A DNA stretch of 21,392 bases from a virus: positions 1 to 21,392 of the IMG/VR virus record IMGVR_UViG_3300031669_000275; one strand, written 5' to 3'. The notes below the pieces were generated by a model. The model was not told the origin of the DNA. It was given only the letters and a program-made list of their open reading frames with translations, and made no database searches. Shown here piece after piece: positions 6,642 through 13,837 of the stretch (position 1 is the first letter of the stretch; every line of letters begins with the position of its first letter). The position numbers were made by a program, and so were the translations under genes.

Positions 6642-7286
6642 TCATGCGATTCTTTTAACAACCACTGAACCAGTCCACGCATTCGGCATTATTATTGTTC
6701 CGAGGGATGACCAGACTGTTGTGGTGTCATCCCAGTGTGTTTCAGTATCCAGAATATAATTTGAACCTGTAATTGCGCTTCTTGATCTTATAGATGCCTG
6801 CTTCGTGGCAGTTGAGGTGAAAACAGTTGCCAATAAAGAATAAACAGAACCGTTTGAGCCATCCAGAACCATGGCGCTCGTAGTACTTATCACAGACGCT
6901 GGTGCACTTCCAAGTGTTGCATAAATAAATCCAGTTGTGAATGCGGAAGCATAAGTCGTATTGTTTGGATTAAGAGTACAATTTATCCCTGCCCCTGCCG
7001 CGGGTGTGAAATTACCGGCCATATCAATCTCATAAGCCTGCCCATCACCACAAGCTATGTGCAGAGGCATGGAAGTTGCGGAGGTGAAAGAATCTTGCGT
7101 AATCTGACCTACGCCTAACACACGGTCGTTTACGCCATCCCAAGCAACTGGCGTAAAATAAGAACCGACAGCCAGTGATAGATTGTATAAATACAGATAC
7201 CAAGTCGGATCGGCAATAACAATTCCTTGCGCGTTTGCTTTGCCGAATATGCTTCCTGATTGCGGGATCTTCTGGACTATGCTCAT
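6642..7286 (-). CDS. Unknown beta-rich protein in the tail-needle slot
   Basis: This 214-residue protein was not recognised. It opens 'MSIVQKIPQSGSIFGKANAQG' (split here for length) and is rich in Ser, Thr, Ala and Gly with alternating hydrophobics, the look of a beta-sandwich virion protein. It has no coiled coil, signal peptide or membrane segment. Its ATG overlaps the stop of the gp10-like gene in ATGA, so the two are probably translated together. In P22 the gene after gp10 is gp26, the trimeric tail needle that plugs the portal, followed by gp14. This protein occupies that slot but lacks the long helical heptads of gp26. It might be a plug, needle knob or other tail-tip component. That role is inferred from order only. 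Confidence 0.6.
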   Translation of the reverse strand: MSIVQKIPQSGSIFGKANAQGIVIADPTWYLYLYNLSLAVGSYFTPVAWDGVNDRVLGVGQITQDSFTSATSMPLHIACGDGQAYEIDMAGNFTPAAGAGINCTLNPNNTTYASAFTTGFIYATLGSAPASVISTTSAMVLDGSNGSVYSLLATVFTSTATKQASIRSRSAITGSNYILDTETHWDDTTTVWSSLGTIIMPNAWTGSVVVKRIA

Positions 7287-9334
7287 GCCGAACTGAATGC
7301 CTTGAGTGTTACGCCTATCAAATCACGCTTAACCGGATCAATTACTTGCAAATCAACCACGCAATCTCTGCTGAATCCAAGTCTGCGCCACATTGTCCGA
7401 GTCTTGTATTTTCCTGCTTGTCCGATAGGTCGATAAGTACGCTGACCGAAAGTCTTGCCACCATCACGAGAGATAGCCAAACTACACTGCGGAGCTGAAC
7501 CTAATCCAGACGAATTGCCAACTCCAGAAGAAAAATCAAGCTGTAAACTGGCCATGAATACGCGACCGCGCTGCCCCTTGTCCCATATTGGCGGTGAGCG
7601 TCTTTGTGCCAGTAAAGGCCATCCGGCATCGTTCTGCACATCCCGCGTCATTTGATACAAAGCGCCGTTCTGATAATCTCCGACAATGCGCATACTCTTG
7701 AAATTCATGTAGCAATTAGACCGATGCCGATGGTATTGCTGCGTATACGGGTCATAGGAAAGTCGCTTGTGCAACAATCCCGACTGCGTGTCATAGCACC
7801 ATGTCGTATCAGCAGTCGGGAACGTCAGCACATAGAATTCGTGCGTATCCTCCTGATAGGTGTATCCGATTGCATCATAAGTCACCGGATATTGCGATAC
7901 TTCAGCGCTGAATGCAGGGGATGAAACAACGTTATATTGAAATCCCTGAGTGTGAATAATCTTGTTTTCCCCGCGCTCATCTCGTCCGAGCCAAATCAAA
8001 CCTTCCACACCTTCAGATGAGCAAATACGGGCAACGGATGCTGTAGCCATGCATCCTGCTTGAATCAATGTTCCGGTCAATCTTGAGAATGGGAAATTAG
8101 CGCCGCCTGCGTCATACCAAATCTCCGTCGTTTTGTCACCGATCAGCCAGAGCATTTCCTTATGCTCCATGACCGATAGCAGATTATCGGAATAGGCATC
8201 CTTTAGCGCAAAATAAGTTCCTGAGAAAGCAATCCCATAGGCAGGATAATTTGTGTAGAAAGTCTGCGATCCAGGCTTGTTGAATACCCACCAGCCATCA
8301 ATATAAGCAACACGAGTCGCGCCAAGGAATGCAGGATCAAATATCTGCGTCCAGACTGGAAGCGTCGATGTAACGGTATCGGAAGATGATGCGCCGGTTG
8401 TGTTATTTGAAATAGTAATGGTAGGTGGTGCGCCGAAATAATCAACAGCAGTAATCGTTGTTCCGGCTGGAATATATCCTGCTGAATCTGTTACCGTTGC
8501 ACCGATTATCATTTTATAATTCGGCGTTGCATTAAAAGTCAGTACATTCGATGCTACAAACGGGACAATGCTACATGCACTGGATACTGTTGGAACAATG
8601 GCAGCACCGCCTAATGTAGCGGAAAGTTCACATGCGGTTGTAGTAAGTCCCGTAGCAATGACATAATAATTAGTATTTGTAGTAAATCCAGTCGGAGGAG
8701 TACCCTGAATAGATACAATATCTCCAGCACTGAAAGCCTGAGTTGCTGTAGTGAATAATCCGGTTGACGTGCTTTGCGAGGCTGATGCAACCGAAGTTCC
8801 ACCGGCTGTATACATATTCGAAGTTGTAGAGCTTGCCGTTCCATCCAGGCGATACAGATACCCATAAGGGCCATCCACAATTACCGCATATCCACCAGCG
8901 TTATTATCACGGATTGAGACAGGACCGGAGCTGGTCAGCAACATGCCAACATAGGTCAGTGTCAAGGTAGCAAATGTTGATACTTTTGCTGAATAGGCAG
9001 TTACCAGATAGCATTTATTGGCGATTATTGCCAATGCCTGATTTCCACCAGGCAATTCCCAAACTCCGCGCACTGGCAGGTTAGTTACTGCTGATGCGGC
9101 CGGCCATTCAGTTTGCGTATTGGTGAATCCCGGCGCACCGCCAGCCGGATCTGCTACCAGTTCGACAAGACCTGGGCAACCGAGTAATCCTACAACTTCC
9201 TTCGGATTTTGCTGGTCAACCTCGACGTAAAAATTGATGCAGATTTGATCGTTCTGCATTGGGTTAGGCGCGACATCCTGACCGCCTGCCATGCCCATAT
9301 CACCGAAGAAATTTAGAGGTCCGGGGCTTGCCAT
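7283..9334 (-). CDS. P22 gp10-like tail hub / packaged-DNA stabilisation protein
   Basis: This 683-residue protein resembles the P22 gp10 group, which forms the tail hub below the portal and holds packaged DNA in. Family-like features: an N-terminal block with 'NDQICINFYVEVD' and 'LLGCPGLVEL', beta-propeller-like repeats such as 'VRGVWELPGGNQALAII', 'FLGATRVAYIDGWWVFN' and 'WYDAGGANFPFSR', and a C-terminal 'SLQLDFSSGVG ... RDGGKTFG' region. P22 gp10 is about 472 residues. Much of the excess here is an inserted Ser/Thr-rich segment at about residues 167-327, which breaks the family sequence just before 'QIFDPAFLGA'. The start ATG has AGGAG nine bases upstream. It follows the gp4-like gene, as in P22. 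The family call is strong; the insert's role is unknown. Confidence 0.85.
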   Translation of the reverse strand: MASPGPLNFFGDMGMAGGQDVAPNPMQNDQICINFYVEVDQQNPKEVVGLLGCPGLVELVADPAGGAPGFTNTQTEWPAASAVTNLPVRGVWELPGGNQALAIIANKCYLVTAYSAKVSTFATLTLTYVGMLLTSSGPVSIRDNNAGGYAVIVDGPYGYLYRLDGTASSTTSNMYTAGGTSVASASQSTSTGLFTTATQAFSAGDIVSIQGTPPTGFTTNTNYYVIATGLTTTACELSATLGGAAIVPTVSSACSIVPFVASNVLTFNATPNYKMIIGATVTDSAGYIPAGTTITAVDYFGAPPTITISNNTTGASSSDTVTSTLPVWTQIFDPAFLGATRVAYIDGWWVFNKPGSQTFYTNYPAYGIAFSGTYFALKDAYSDNLLSVMEHKEMLWLIGDKTTEIWYDAGGANFPFSRLTGTLIQAGCMATASVARICSSEGVEGLIWLGRDERGENKIIHTQGFQYNVVSSPAFSAEVSQYPVTYDAIGYTYQEDTHEFYVLTFPTADTTWCYDTQSGLLHKRLSYDPYTQQYHRHRSNCYMNFKSMRIVGDYQNGALYQMTRDVQNDAGWPLLAQRRSPPIWDKGQRGRVFMASLQLDFSSGVGNSSGLGSAPQCSLAISRDGGKTFGQRTYRPIGQAGKYKTRTMWRRLGFSRDCVVDLQVIDPVKRDLIGVTLKAFSSA
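8354..8836 (-). other. Inserted beta modules inside the gp10-like protein
   Basis: This stretch encodes residues about 167-327. It looks like two different small beta modules. The first holds 'AFSAGDIVSIQG ... NYYVIATG ... CELSATLGGAAI'. The second holds 'TDSAGYIPAGTTITAVD ... TITISNNTTGASSSD'. The flanks would join into an uninterrupted gp10-like sequence if it were removed. The second module has a relative in the adjacent gp4-like protein (9858-10121). Similar Ser/Thr-rich modules are common as add-ons in phage structural proteins; surface display is inferred. Confidence 0.6.
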
Positions 9335-9356: not shown

Positions 9357-10355
9357 CTATTGATACCCACCTGTAAAAATCCATCCTGCGTTTCCTTTGT
9401 TTCCTCTACTCAATGCGCTTTCATATCTAGCAACGCCTGCTGGTTGAGCATTCAATGCCTTAATCAGATCCTTCGATTCCTGCGCATTCTTCTTGATTGA
9501 TTCGGATAATGGAAAGCCATATTCTGAGCATAATTCATAAGCCAGCAACCATTTCATCATACGGTTATAGCCTTGCGGCATGATAATAACCTGATTCAAA
9601 GTCAAGTTTTGCAATATTCCAGTGGTAAAAAGATGCAATGCAGAACCATTTCCAGGCGTTTGGTAAACATTCAGGATTCCATAAGGGAATTGCGGGTTAT
9701 ACCAAGCAACGGTCGGCCACGGTCCGGGCTGTGCCTTATAAAGAATCGATGTATATTGCGCCTCTGTCTCCATCACATCCAAAGTGAAATCCAAATTATT
9801 GAAGCGCGTAAATCCATGCGTAATGCGTAAAGGTCTGTTAATTGGAAAATTACCAGGAACAGTATAGGTAATCGAATCCGCGCCGGATGAACTTCCAGTT
9901 GCATTGGCTGACATCGTTACTGTATGCGCAACAGAATCAAATGCCAGAACTGTAGTATTTGCTGGAATAACGCCTTGTGAATCAGTAAGGATAGAGCCGG
10001 AACCAACTAGATAAGCTGCGCTTGCACCAGCTACTAGATTACTTGGCATGTTGGTTACACCGGTAATCGTAGGCGATCCAGATGTGACAGTTCCGATAAA
10101 TGGAGCAGAGCCGAGCAAAGTACAAACAGGATTACCAACTGTGTATTGGTTTTTCTGAGCGGTCCAAGCAAGGATATTCTCGTTCGTCCCGAATGCCAGC
10201 GACTTGTCAAGGCTCAAAGAATCGAGTAAGTCATTGAACGTATCGAGGCAATCAGTTGCATCTGGTGTATCTATTGTTTCTCCAGACTGATACGAGTTAA
10301 TGCGCCGCAATGCGCCTTCGATTATATTTAATGCTGTTGTCACGCCAATAGTCAT
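9357..10355 (-). CDS. P22 gp4-like head-to-tail connector protein
   Basis: This 332-residue protein belongs to the P22 gp4 group, which binds beneath the portal and starts tail assembly. The N-terminus has the expected helical pattern 'ALNIIEGALRRINSYQSGETIDTPDATDCLDTFNDLLDSLS' (residues about 8-48), then 'QYTVG' (70-74). In the family this is soon followed by a strand with 'RPLRI', but here about 90 residues of beta module are inserted first, and 'NFPINRPLRITHG' resumes at about 169. The C-terminal part has 'LLAYELCSEYGFPLSESI', typical of the family's final helices. P22 gp4 is about 166 residues, so this one is twice as long. A lytic activity has been reported for P22 gp4; no active site can be assigned here. 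AGGAG lies six bases before the ATG. Confidence 0.8.
   Translation of the reverse strand: MTIGVTTALNIIEGALRRINSYQSGETIDTPDATDCLDTFNDLLDSLSLDKSLAFGTNENILAWTAQKNQYTVGNPVCTLLGSAPFIGTVTSGSPTITGVTNMPSNLVAGASAAYLVGSGSILTDSQGVIPANTTVLAFDSVAHTVTMSANATGSSSGADSITYTVPGNFPINRPLRITHGFTRFNNLDFTLDVMETEAQYTSILYKAQPGPWPTVAWYNPQFPYGILNVYQTPGNGSALHLFTTGILQNLTLNQVIIMPQGYNRMMKWLLAYELCSEYGFPLSESIKKNAQESKDLIKALNAQPAGVARYESALSRGNKGNAGWIFTGGYQ
9858..10121 (-). other. Inserted beta module inside the gp4-like protein
   Basis: This stretch encodes residues about 79-166, lying exactly between the two halves of the canonical gp4 core (QYTVG and NRPLRI). It has the pattern TSGSPTITGV, then TDSQGVIPANTTVLAFD, then TVTMSANATGSSS. 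This is clearly similar to the second module in the neighbouring gp10-like protein (TDSAGYIPAGTTITAVD ... TISNNTTGASSS). Shared origin or repeated acquisition of the same mobile beta domain is inferred. Confidence 0.6.
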
Positions 10356-10364
10356 CTTGTACTC

Positions 10365-10634
10365 CTAGACGTTGGTATTGCCTGCCGGATAAGCGACTGA
10401 CATTGGAAACTGACCGCAAGTCAATTGGACCGATGAATTGGCAACAATGCCAGTTGCGCCTGATGCTGGATTTTGTGCCGTTACCACGGCAGGATTAGCG
10501 GCTGTGCTGATGAATGAAATAGTTACCGGATCAATCTGGAAATATCCAAGCGGAAGCACCCTAACTCCGGCGTCCACCATAGCCAGCAGTGCGGCTTCGT
10601 ATTCGAGTCCGACACAATCTGGCATAGTCGGCAT
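10365..10634 (-). CDS. Small PASTA-like domain protein
   Basis: This 89-residue protein is nearly all one PASTA-like domain. It has 'MPDCVGLEYEAALLAMVDAGVRV' (split for length; the family's P-[DN]-V-[VI]-G helix start), then 'VVTAQNPASGATGIVANSSVQL', the classic x-Q-x-P-x-x-G loop and closing strand, ending by about residue 74. PASTA domains bind peptidoglycan or beta-lactams in bacterial kinases and penicillin-binding proteins; phage copies are less understood. There is no signal peptide, so it is probably cytoplasmic or in the virion. The start ATG has no good Shine-Dalgarno site but lies three bases after the previous stop, pointing to reinitiation. It sits between two small beta-rich genes and the gp4-like connector. 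A virion or cell-wall-binding role is inferred. Confidence 0.65.
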   Translation of the reverse strand: MPTMPDCVGLEYEAALLAMVDAGVRVLPLGYFQIDPVTISFISTAANPAVVTAQNPASGATGIVANSSVQLTCGQFPMSVAYPAGNTNV

Positions 10635-10998: not shown

Positions 10999-11418
10999 TT
11001 AAGCAGTCCTTGTAAATGCGTAAGCAGTAGAGCTTGAGAACATCAGCGTAAATCTTGCCAATCCTGTTGCTCCACTGGCTACGGTCAATTGACCGAAACT
11101 TGCAGCAGTAGTGGCAGCAGCATCAGACAGAATACCGTTCGTGGCAACCGCAATCGTTACTGTGTTAGCCCCTGCGGTATTGTCGATGTAAAGCTGGAAA
11201 ACAGTCCCTTTTTGTGCTTTCAGATATTGCCCGAGCAAAGTTCCGGTCGGCAATGTGATAGTCGTAGCTGCGGCACTAGTCGAGGTGATGTAGCCGCCAG
11301 CAACTTGTGCAGCTGTAGCCGTAGCCGTTGCATTGATCGCCACCGGAACATAATTGATCTGTATGTTTTCCAATACCGGGTCAGCGAAGGCTACTCCTAA
11401 TGCTTTTGTATTCGACAT
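10999..11418 (-). CDS. Probable capsid decoration-type protein
   Basis: This 139-residue protein has the pattern 'TTITLPTGTLLGQYLKAQKGTVFQLYIDNTAGANTVTIAV' (split in the gene by no gap), followed by 'GLARFTLMFSSSTAYAFTRTA'. This 'tLPtG ... G ... idN..GanTvTi' arrangement is common in small phage surface or decoration proteins and C-terminal fibre domains. A family name cannot be given with certainty. It is Ala/Thr-rich with no charged clusters, signal peptide or membrane segment. AGGA lies seven bases before the ATG. It begins a trio of small genes (139, 119 and 89 residues) between the glycosyltransferase and the gp4-like connector, a position where P22-like phages often carry extra capsid genes. 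Decoration is inferred. Confidence 0.6.
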   Translation of the reverse strand: MSNTKALGVAFADPVLENIQINYVPVAINATATATAAQVAGGYITSTSAAATTITLPTGTLLGQYLKAQKGTVFQLYIDNTAGANTVTIAVATNGILSDAAATTAASFGQLTVASGATGLARFTLMFSSSTAYAFTRTA

Positions 11419-11429
11419 GATATTTTCCT

Positions 11430-12113
11430 TTAGGCTACGCGAAGAGACAAGTCTCCGCCTGGTTGGTGACGCAAAAAATTATGAAAGTTGCCTCGATATT
11501 CTTTATCTTCGGAATGATGGTTCAAATTCAGGTTAGGTACTACCCATATTTCACCACCACAATCGATCCAATTACGGCTGAATGCGTAATCTTCACCCCA
11601 CCACGCGCCATCATGTGCGCCATGATTAAATAAATCAACTGATAGGTTGTATTTTGGACCAAAACATAAGTCAGGATAAGATGACATAAATTTGTCAACA
11701 GCGCCTGCCGTTACCTTCAAAAATCCCGCCGGTACTCTGGTAGCCTTTATACAACCATCTGTACGTACTACAGGCTGAAAGTTTTTTCCATCCTGAATAA
11801 CGCCCATATATTTCTCTTCGTCATCCTTGAAACGATAGAGTCCTGCAACTACATCACCAGGAGTTTCAATCAGGGTTAGAAGGTCACGAGGATCCCAACT
11901 CATATCATGGTCGATGAAAATAATAATGTCAGCTTTGGCATCCATCGCCTTGCGCAACATCGTGGCACGGGCAGCCGATATGTAAGGGCATCCAATTTCG
12001 TTTACCATTCCATGATCGTAATTGCCGAGCACTGGAACGGAATTTTTTAGACTATCCAGCGTTTGCTGGTATGGCCGTTTGAGTGTTGGAATGCAGAAAA
12101 CAACTTTTTTCAA
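11430..12113 (-). CDS. GT-A family glycosyltransferase
   Basis: A GT-A-fold glycosyltransferase, transferring a sugar from a nucleotide donor to an unknown acceptor in the cytoplasm. The fold starts with 'KKVVFCIPTLKRPY' (first strand and loop). It continues through the nucleotide-binding half to the DxD-type motif 'IIIFIDHDMSW' (D68-H-D70 in 227-residue numbering), which binds metal and donor. Near the C-terminus 'GGEIWVVPNLNLNHHS' resembles the closing strand and catalytic or metal-site histidine of this group. An ATG at 12179 would add 22 residues, but that stretch encodes an RNA hairpin, has no family look and lacks a proper ribosome-binding site. TTG at 12113 (GGGAG ten bases upstream) is preferred, giving 227 residues. 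It lies between head-fibre and decoration genes. Targets could be a virion protein or a host glycan; the sequence does not say. Confidence 0.75.
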   Translation of the reverse strand: MKKVVFCIPTLKRPYQQTLDSLKNSVPVLGNYDHGMVNEIGCPYISAARATMLRKAMDAKADIIIFIDHDMSWDPRDLLTLIETPGDVVAGLYRFKDDEEKYMGVIQDGKNFQPVVRTDGCIKATRVPAGFLKVTAGAVDKFMSSYPDLCFGPKYNLSVDLFNHGAHDGAWWGEDYAFSRNWIDCGGEIWVVPNLNLNHHSEDKEYRGNFHNFLRHQPGGDLSLRVA

Positions 12114-12147
12114 TTTATTCCAACTCCCATAAATATGGAACTGGATT

Positions 12148-12172
12148 GCTCCCGCACCAAACGTGCAGGAGC
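12148..12172 (-). promoter_or_regulatory. Strong RNA hairpin after the head-fibre gene
   Basis: A ten-base inverted repeat (GCTCCTGCAC / GTGCGGGAGC on the minus strand, one G-U pair) closes a five-base loop. A further outer pairing ATGGAA/TTCCAT flanks it. It lies in the 72-base gap between the 91-residue head-fibre gene and the glycosyltransferase. On the minus strand no T-run follows, so it is not a classical intrinsic terminator there. On the plus strand TTTCCATTTTTT follows, which would suit a terminator of antisense transcription. An attenuator or RNA-processing element limiting read-through from capsid to tail genes is possible. Confidence 0.6.
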
Positions 12173-12185
12173 TTTCCATTTTTTA

Positions 12186-12461
12186 CTAGGCAGCCCAAAT
12201 TCCAAGCGCCAGCAACGTATTTACGACTTCGAGCATCTGCGCGACCTGCAACGTCCCGTAAGCCGAAGACGTAACATAATTGCTAGTCGTATGAGTCGAT
12301 GCGGTTGCCCGCTGCGCTATTGGTGTTGCACCATAAAAACCATTCAGGGCAGCCGGATTATCTCCAAACTGATTCGGACCGCCTTGATTCAGGTACGGAT
12401 TAGGCGAAGAGACTACATTTGGCCCAGGATTGCTGCCGTCTACATTAGTTGTTGCTACCAT
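12186..12461 (-). CDS. Small head-fibre-like protein
   Basis: This 91-residue protein has a Gly/Asn/Pro-rich, flexible-looking N-terminal half and a C-terminal half with 'GFYGATPIAQRAT', then 'VAQMLEVVNTLLALGIW'. That ending ('fyGaTPvaQ...' followed by a short C-terminal helix) recurs at the C-terminus of small phage head-fibre proteins and is thought to drive trimerisation. No signal peptide or membrane helix is seen. AGGAG lies seven bases before the ATG, and the gene starts 11 bases after the major capsid stop, so capsid and fibre are probably on the same abundant message. Likely a capsid surface spike or fibre; its partner is presumably the coat protein. This is inferred from the motif and position. 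Confidence 0.6.
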   Translation of the reverse strand: MVATTNVDGSNPGPNVVSSPNPYLNQGGPNQFGDNPAALNGFYGATPIAQRATASTHTTSNYVTSSAYGTLQVAQMLEVVNTLLALGIWAA

Positions 12462-12472
12462 GCTATTTCTCC

Positions 12473-13837
12473 TTAACCCGAAACACGAACAGCCAGCGGA
12501 CGAAACAGGCTTGCGAATCCATAAGCTAAATCGAGGCGGGTTGGTTCAGCGTCATTGTTGATGGTGTACTGCGTCGCAATCCGGATAGAAATGCCCAGAT
12601 CATCGTCGTATGCACGGCTTGCTTCAACTGCGGTACGTGGCAATGGCAAGTCAACGAAAGCCAGAGCAAACGCATCACGATGGAAGTACAGGTTTTCCGT
12701 CGAGTTGGTTGCCAAAGCTGCCCCGCCATTAAGCGTTACTGTCGGTGTGCCAGTCCATGCCGATCCAGTTGCACAGTTCTGGAATTGACCGCCAGTGATC
12801 GCGCATTCGCCTACCGTTACTGACAAAGTACCATCGCTCTTTGCCGTATACAGACCAGTTGAAGCGTTGAACGTGCCATTTGTCGGCGTACCAGCGGCAA
12901 ACTGAGGACCACCAGGAGATGCAACACCAGCCATTTGCGCATAACCAGCAGGAGGCAAGACAACAAACTGTTTCAGCGTATTGCCGTACTGACTGCGGTT
13001 TTGCGGGTTGACAGGATACAGACCTGCAACCTGGATGGTATCGCCAACTTTACAAGCTGCCGAGCTATTGGTCAGTCCTGACAACTGGAATACACCAGTC
13101 TGCGCCCAGCCGGCAGTGATGATCGCCGTACCGCCGGATGCAGCAGTTACGCCAGCCAAAACTGGGGTACCGAGCAAGCTACCAGTGGTGTACGAAGCCA
13201 CGTTCGGATCTTCAAACCAGTCAGCACCGGCTGTTTTTGCAGCTACCAAGCCAGTTTCATACAGATTGCTGATTTGTGCTTGAGGATTGAACAGACCCTT
13301 CAGACTGTCAGCCATCGAGGACATTGCCAGCGGATGAAGTACCGCGGTTGGCATCATTCCCTTCGGCATACCTTCGGAAGCCAGGATCGCACGAGCATCG
13401 CTGAAGTTCTTGAACGAAGTTGGAGAAGTTCCAGGAGTGCCTAGACGGTTTGCGGTATTTTGCATGGCGAAGTAAGCACCGTCCGAGTCCACGCGGTTTG
13501 CAACCGTAATACAGGCGGGATGAATGAAACGTTCTTCGAAGTCGTCAATGTCCAGCAGCATGTTGATCGTGTTGAACTGGATGTCAACGTGGTATTGATA
13601 CAAGATGTTTACCGGAACATAGTTCTCGGTGGACGCCTCTACGTTCAAGGCAGGGCCGAAAGTACCCAAATAACGGGGAGACACACGAACGTTGCAGGTT
13701 GCACCGATCTTGCGGCCTTTTTGCCCGAATTCCTTGTCGTATTGACGGTTGAATTTATCAGTCAGAACGCACTCGTTTGCCAATACTGGCAGGGCGCGAT
13801 TGGTAATCTGACTGATCGTAAGCAGTTGATTCGCCAA
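12473..13837 (-). CDS. P22-type major capsid protein
   Basis: This 454-residue coat protein forms the icosahedral shell (HK97 fold). Family features: the N-terminal 'LLTISQITNRALPVLANE', 'KFNRQYDKEFGQKGRKIGAT', 'VSPRYLGTFGPALNVEAST', 'LLDIDDFEERFIHPA' and, later, 'VAGLYPVNPQNRS', 'LYFHRDAFALAFVDLPLP' and the C-terminal 'RLDLAYGFASLFRPLAVRV'. These match the P22-coat family common in phages with gp4/gp10-type tails. The segment at about residues 290-360, Gly/Ala/Thr-rich, looks variable. Length is close to P22 coat (430). The start is TTG at 13837, not ATG: the family N-terminus (MANQLLT) begins there, and AAGGAG sits seven bases upstream. No in-frame ATG lies nearby. It is preceded by the scaffold gene, as expected. 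Confidence 0.92.
   Translation of the reverse strand: MANQLLTISQITNRALPVLANECVLTDKFNRQYDKEFGQKGRKIGATCNVRVSPRYLGTFGPALNVEASTENYVPVNILYQYHVDIQFNTINMLLDIDDFEERFIHPACITVANRVDSDGAYFAMQNTANRLGTPGTSPTSFKNFSDARAILASEGMPKGMMPTAVLHPLAMSSMADSLKGLFNPQAQISNLYETGLVAAKTAGADWFEDPNVASYTTGSLLGTPVLAGVTAASGGTAIITAGWAQTGVFQLSGLTNSSAACKVGDTIQVAGLYPVNPQNRSQYGNTLKQFVVLPPAGYAQMAGVASPGGPQFAAGTPTNGTFNASTGLYTAKSDGTLSVTVGECAITGGQFQNCATGSAWTGTPTVTLNGGAALATNSTENLYFHRDAFALAFVDLPLPRTAVEASRAYDDDLGISIRIATQYTINNDAEPTRLDLAYGFASLFRPLAVRVSG

Follow-up and report, generated by a model that had tools for sequence, protein, structure and literature searches.

A predicted GT-A glycosyltransferase paired with a small fibre-like protein in the head operon of P22-type phages

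In a 21,392-base virus sequence, whose whole length is referred to here as the window, a predicted GT-A glycosyltransferase (GT; 11430..12113, minus strand) is encoded directly behind the gene for a small fibre-like protein, and the two are paired and exchanged together among related loci. With a probability of roughly 60%, we propose that the GT glycosylates this fibre-like protein, which is translated just before it, so that progeny virions would carry glycosylated capsid fibres; the proposal draws on sequence comparison and structure prediction. Glycosylation of phage particles has been demonstrated in few systems, and sequence gives little hint of the acceptors. If the proposal is true, the enzyme, its acceptor and an optional sugar-capping step could be predicted from one two- or three-gene cassette carried by numerous uncultivated phages and by prophage-like loci from Rhizobium and its relatives. 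PHROG 1574, a family of 'unknown function', would then gain a role, and phages might vary the glycans on their surfaces through cassette exchange.

The gene and its setting

The late operon lies on the minus strand in the order terminase, P22-type portal, scaffold, P22-type coat protein, a 91-amino-acid protein, GT, several small proteins and head-completion proteins. The coat protein (12473..13837, minus strand; PF11651, 1.8e-25; PHROG 283) serves as the marker of the capsid lineage. It is followed by the 91-amino-acid fibre-like protein (12186..12461, minus strand), the proposed acceptor, which has motifs in common with its relatives, no match in Pfam, PHROG or NCBIfam, and a low-confidence structural model. 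On the other side of the GT lies p139 (10999..11418, minus strand), a small Ala/Thr-rich protein that is possibly a decoration protein. A sequence-only reading of this DNA had placed the GT within the structural operon, and there it is, two genes after the P22-type coat protein and flanked by small genes. The same reading had called the neighbours 'head fibre' and 'decoration' genes; the setting between them stands, but the two labels derive from position and composition, the small flanking genes having no Pfam or PHROG match.

The GT region contains one open frame on the minus strand, the longest version of which starts with an ATG at 12179 (249 residues) and would add 22 residues to the 227-residue protein that starts with a TTG at 12113. 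The TTG is the better supported of the two: aligned relatives begin at residues 1-3 of the 227-residue version rather than at the ATG, which lies 22 codons further upstream. In the window sequence a GGAG is located 10 nt 5′ of the TTG, and no Shine-Dalgarno motif is visible before the ATG. The TTG start suspected earlier is thus backed both by the relatives and by the GGAG.

Fold and active site of the enzyme

The GT matches PHROG 1574 (E 1.2e-15; profile positions 13-230 of 240) and falls below the gathering cut-off of the Pfam family Glycos_transf_2 (PF00535; 18.2 bits against 23.3, E 0.0025). With 42 aligned sequences as input, AlphaFold gave a confident model of GT-A fold (mean pLDDT 92.4, pTM 0.90). 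Foldseek searches with this model return glycosyltransferases including COLGALT1 and LH3. A second structural aligner ranks the glycosyltransferase A197 of the archaeal virus STIV first (PDB 2c0n; Z 17.0, rmsd 2.6 over 165 residues, 19% identity), followed among solved folds by the lysyl hydroxylase LH3, the yeast mannosyltransferase subunit Mnn9 and the collagen galactosyltransferase COLGALT1. By sequence, the similarity between A197 and the GT is very weak (E 0.019).

Twelve residues are invariant across the 42 aligned GTs: P9, R49, D68, D70, F162, E174, D175, F178, W190, H199, G208 and N209. We take E174/D175 to be the xED catalytic motif and H199 to be the C-terminal His, as these motifs are named in GT-A enzymes; the invariant set fits the DxD, xED and C-terminal His of this class. 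Of the 'intact D-H-D motif' described earlier, the two aspartates hold up, both being also invariant in a 44-sequence alignment. Between them the displayed rows have H, A or Y, which rules out D-H-D as a strict signature and leaves DxD, the metal/nucleotide motif, as the conserved element. Overall, the confident fold, the solved match to A197 and the conserved catalytic residues uphold the assignment to the GT-A enzymes, and they supplement the annotation of PHROG 1574. The median dN/dS among GT relatives is 0.125 over 996 pairs (22 re-fetched locus copies having been dropped beforehand), which argues that the protein has been kept functional. In our reading the GT is a predicted soluble, single-domain, metal-dependent GT-A glycosyltransferase.

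Linkage between the enzyme and the fibre module

A scan of viral contigs with the GT yielded 209 relatives, the best 80 of which were retained. Their gene order is coat protein, one or two small fibre-like genes, a methyltransferase in some, GT, a small gap and the tail adaptor. The GTs of these 80 loci are 64-75% identical to that of the window and the coat proteins of GT-carrying loci 26-48%, a contrast biased by the use of GT similarity to select the loci. In the relatives, the gene that precedes the GT encodes a C-terminal module whose motif (G/A)FYGxTPxxQR hardly varies, and the fibre-like protein of the window has this module in common with them (GFYGATPIAQR).

Ninety loci with a window-type GT were available for a test of this linkage, ten re-fetched copies having been dropped; 74 of them extend at least 800 nt upstream of the GT and were counted, and 16 have too little upstream sequence. 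A profile search finds the fibre module within 1200 nt upstream of the GT in all 74. The distance between the two is within 60 nt in 33 loci, 61-400 nt in five, 401-620 nt in 35 and longer in one, and the 401-620 nt spacing corresponds to the size of a methyltransferase gene (PF08241, 3.1e-09). A search for relatives in the same position, which the sequence-only reading had called for, has therefore returned a conserved head-operon order with a fibre module paired to every GT that was counted. In a larger set of GT-, fibre- and capsid-selected loci that overlaps with these 74, the first type of GT is accompanied by the module in 124 of 124 cases; the fibre profile stays under threshold in L003, L202 and L262, the latter two of which had been retrieved by their fibre. 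Among distant-type GTs the module accompanies one of 33, that of L178, where it lies directly upstream of the GT in a gene overlapped by the longest reading frame of the locus, and was found by eye after being missed by the script.

The methyltransferase is found between fibre and GT (L002:14876-15382), as a methyltransferase-like stretch fused to the GT (L003:9998-11275) or after the GT (L178:6013-6567), as if sugar methylation were optional.

From the fibre side, a module scan whose first query came from a Hyphomicrobiales contig returned at least 599 stretches, with 277 relatives among the matches listed; the 80 loci closest to a GT-linked query were analysed, that is, the best 80 of at least 277. 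A broad-family GT is present in 74 of these 80, 73 found by script and one by eye (L224, in which a methyltransferase and a GT stand between two fibre genes). Two further loci of the 80, L210 and L256, have in place of the GT a non-homologous MptE-like enzyme (PF01973; 46.9 bits and above the cut-off of 34.6 in L210, 23.5 bits and below it in L256), whose domain we take to be that of Maf proteins. These enzymes lie directly behind the fibre module (L210:2816-3595, L256:2719-3459). Three contigs (L194, L213 and L258) end 7, 407 and 13 nt after the fibre, so that the presence of an enzyme is undecidable, and L212 has the module and neither a GT nor an MptE-like enzyme; L213, with coordinates identical to those of L212, probably also lacks a GT. 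With both non-homologous enzymes counted, the module is accompanied by an enzyme in 76 of 77 decidable loci within the best 80 of at least 277. When the 12 contigs already seen in the GT scan are removed from these 80, the remaining 68 divide into 62 with a GT, two with an MptE-like enzyme, one with none and three undecided. L212 carries the module without a GT, and glycosylation would therefore not be required.

Four further loci came from a scan of genome contigs: Rhizobium ecuadorense (L181), a Hyphomicrobiales MAG (L180), a Falkowbacteria MAG (L179, a 5.9-kb contig that also carries a methyltransferase) and an Acidobacteria MAG (L182, where the locus is cut). The order of coat, fibre and GT is kept in three of these four prophage-type loci, the cut L182 being the other. 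In L181 the fibre and GT genes overlap by 4 nt, which suggests translational coupling. The Rhizobium and Hyphomicrobiales loci suggest that some carriers are temperate.

Exchange between capsid lineages

A scan with the coat protein gave a different set of loci from that chosen by the GT, namely the 80 closest to the window (66-86% coat identity). In this lineage the gene after the coat protein usually encodes a protein of 130-150 amino acids that represents another fibre type and has TNxDGxNPGP or a variant of it in its N-terminus, the strict pattern being present in 56 of 75. A broad-family GT is found in 29 of the 64 coat-lineage loci with at least 1300 nt downstream, and the remaining loci are without one. 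In many loci of this lineage a distant GT (21-28% identity), which belongs to the same sequence family, PHROG 1574, as that of the window, occupies the same slot beside the unrelated fibre type, and the slot is therefore not tied to one type of fibre.

In L099 (6372-7790) and similar loci within L084-L163, the distant GT is often found between two fibre genes of the other type. In other loci the slot is taken by different small proteins.

Only one of the 80 coat-chosen loci, L084, has a window-type GT (about 60% identity), and it is also the only one with the fibre module; this coincidence argues that the pair moves as a cassette. The fibres of the window and of L084 join the N-terminal motif of the coat lineage (TNVDGSNPGP in the window) to the C-terminal module of the GT lineage. 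The window's re-fetched copy aside, an N-terminus of the TNxDGxNPGP type is found in no other of 156 module-bearing proteins. At the DNA level, the window matches L096 (no GT; coat identity 86%) up to 14 nt beyond the end of the coat gene. With both L096 and L087 the similarity is lost no more than 3 nt inside the fibre gene and returns 78 nt into p139; with L084 it extends over most of the fibre and GT genes. The fibre module and the GT were thus swapped as a block at this site.

A broader reading, which we hold at somewhat less than even odds, is that the fibre module and a dedicated enzyme form one evolutionary unit, a glyco-fibre cassette swapped among unrelated P22-type phages, with glycans exchanged in a serotype-like manner. 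Just as tentatively, the N-terminal capsid anchor would be specific to each lineage and the C-terminal module would travel with its matching enzyme. That enzyme might be, at similar odds, a GT-A protein, a GT-A protein with a methyltransferase, or an MptE-like protein.

A proposed route to glycosylated fibres

The GT would take a nucleotide-sugar from the host and move the sugar onto newly made fibre protein in the cytoplasm, before or during head assembly or capsid decoration. Cytoplasmic transfer would be the simplest mechanism for a soluble, single-domain enzyme whose gene immediately follows that of the fibre within one operon. The likely targets would be hydroxyl side chains in the C-terminal module, where the stretch that follows the FYG motif is rich in Ser and Thr (on average 24% in 86 unique sequences, against 14% in large window ORFs). 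Thr is found at T46 in 98% of sequences, and Ser or Thr at positions 59 and 64 in 88% and 93%, respectively; this content and conservation are compatible with O-glycosylation without proving it. The predicted structure of the fibre is poor (pLDDT 53.5), and no acceptor site can therefore be placed on it. In the many relatives with a methyltransferase gene between fibre and GT, the additional enzyme would cap the sugar; the window has no methyltransferase. Shielding or altered adhesion are candidate benefits of the glycan.

The leading alternative, though improbable in our estimate, is that the GT modifies another virion protein, such as the coat or the decoration-like p139 or p119, and merely adjoins the fibre gene. 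The GT sits in the head operon, and the additional small genes p139, p119 and a PASTA-like gene lie just downstream of it in the window. The literature describes the coat protein of STIV as the suspected target of A197 (PMC10551542) and glycans on mycobacteriophage coat proteins (PMC11256854). Against the coat as target stands its 26-48% identity among GT loci where the GTs keep 64-75%, in a comparison biased by the choice of loci; against p139, its retention in L096 and L087, which lack a window-type GT; and against both p139 and p119, their absence from most GT loci.

Slightly less probable is a change of host surface glycans that alters a receptor or blocks superinfection, which the sequence-only reading had considered equally possible. 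This is a recognised role of phage glycosyltransferases (PMC10202952, PMC12619734), and some carriers are apparently temperate, as the Rhizobium and Hyphomicrobiales contigs indicate. It would, however, not lead one to expect the strict pairing with the fibre module, the joint exchange or the fixed place in the head operon, and late structural expression would be poorly timed for superinfection exclusion. Host-surface operons of the gtrABC type have a flippase and a lipid-carrier glycosyltransferase beside the gene. A scan of 19 window ORFs other than the GT gave no match to such surface-modification partners, neither to a flippase nor to a membrane-type glycosylation gene, in a record that is a 21-kb fragment. 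The virion option is thus favoured because the GT and the fibre module are paired and exchanged together, and the parity of the two options has not survived.

The fibre and the GT may also have no biochemical partnership, their pairing reflecting hitch-hiking on one recombination cassette, and we regard this as unlikely. The genes are adjacent, often 0-60 nt apart, and evolutionary distances do not single out the fibre as the partner of the GT. In a mirror-tree comparison over 61 loci, some of them GT- or fibre-chosen and with 22 re-fetched copies dropped, the coat-adaptor correlation is 0.961, and the GT and the fibre correlate with the coat, the adaptor and each other at 0.737-0.796 (GT-fibre 0.795, GT-adaptor 0.796, GT-capsid 0.778). 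Yet the pairing outlasts the insertion of a methyltransferase gene between the two in many loci, and in two loci a non-homologous enzyme replaces the GT. Modification of phage DNA or of a small molecule is very improbable: some viral glycosyltransferases do glycosylate DNA, as cited in PMC12619734, but among solved folds the nearest are A197 and glycosyltransferases that act on proteins or glycans, and no DNA-modification gene was matched in the scanned window ORFs, a weak argument in a fragmentary record.

Relation to known systems

Glycosylation of virions by virus-encoded enzymes is already known; a fixed pair of fibre and enzyme seems to be a new form of it, and no description of a fibre-plus-glycosyltransferase cassette was found in the open-licence PMC literature at the level of titles and abstracts. 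Like the window GT, STIV A197 is a small, single-domain viral GT-A enzyme, but STIV is of a different realm and capsid type, and the suspected target of A197 is a capsid protein, the coat (PMC10551542).

PMC11256854 describes phage-encoded glycosyltransferases thought to modify capsid proteins in the mycobacteriophages Che8 and Rita, as well as glycan shielding. The same paper places the GT genes of Maravista, a related phage, close to the 3′ end of the genome and not in the head operon, unlike the window GT. The mycobacteriophage targets are the coat or tail-tube protein, in contrast to the small fibre proposed here.

COLGALT1 and the GT domain of LH3 have the GT-A fold in common with the window GT and glycosylate a fibrous protein; they differ from it in being eukaryotic and multidomain, in using hydroxylysine as acceptor and in their low identity over the fold (12-16%). 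The fold of Maf is unrelated to that of the window GT, and the analogy concerns the mode of action only. Flagellin, a filament protein, is O-glycosylated by this dedicated enzyme in the cytoplasm, before export (PMC4065374), and the fibre may be modified in a similar manner.

Other features of the locus

The hairpin that had been noticed ahead of the GT (12132..12178, minus strand) lies between the fibre stop codon and the TTG start, and a T-rich run follows it on the plus strand. It is real, in that none of 200 shuffles folds as well (z -3.44), but private to this one record: among all loci compared, its core is seen in the window and in L001, the window's own copy. With the core absent from other loci and no match in Rfam, a role as a conserved regulatory element was ruled out.

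The GC content of the GT gene is 43.4%, against a window mean of 47.9 (s.d. 2.7); it was dropped as proof of recent acquisition, p332 being equally low (43.7%). The adaptor-like (9357-10355) and head-closure (7283-9334) proteins exceed their PHROG relatives in length, with apparent Thr/Gly-rich insertions. A weak PASTA-domain match, slightly under the cut-off (E 8.5e-05), marks an 89-amino-acid protein (10365-10634) that 41 of the 80 coat-lineage loci also have. In phages of the GT lineage (L004:6915-7193 and L060), the first fibre gene encodes an N-terminus similar to that of p139 (NTKAxGVAF), as if otherwise different proteins had common N-terminal anchors.
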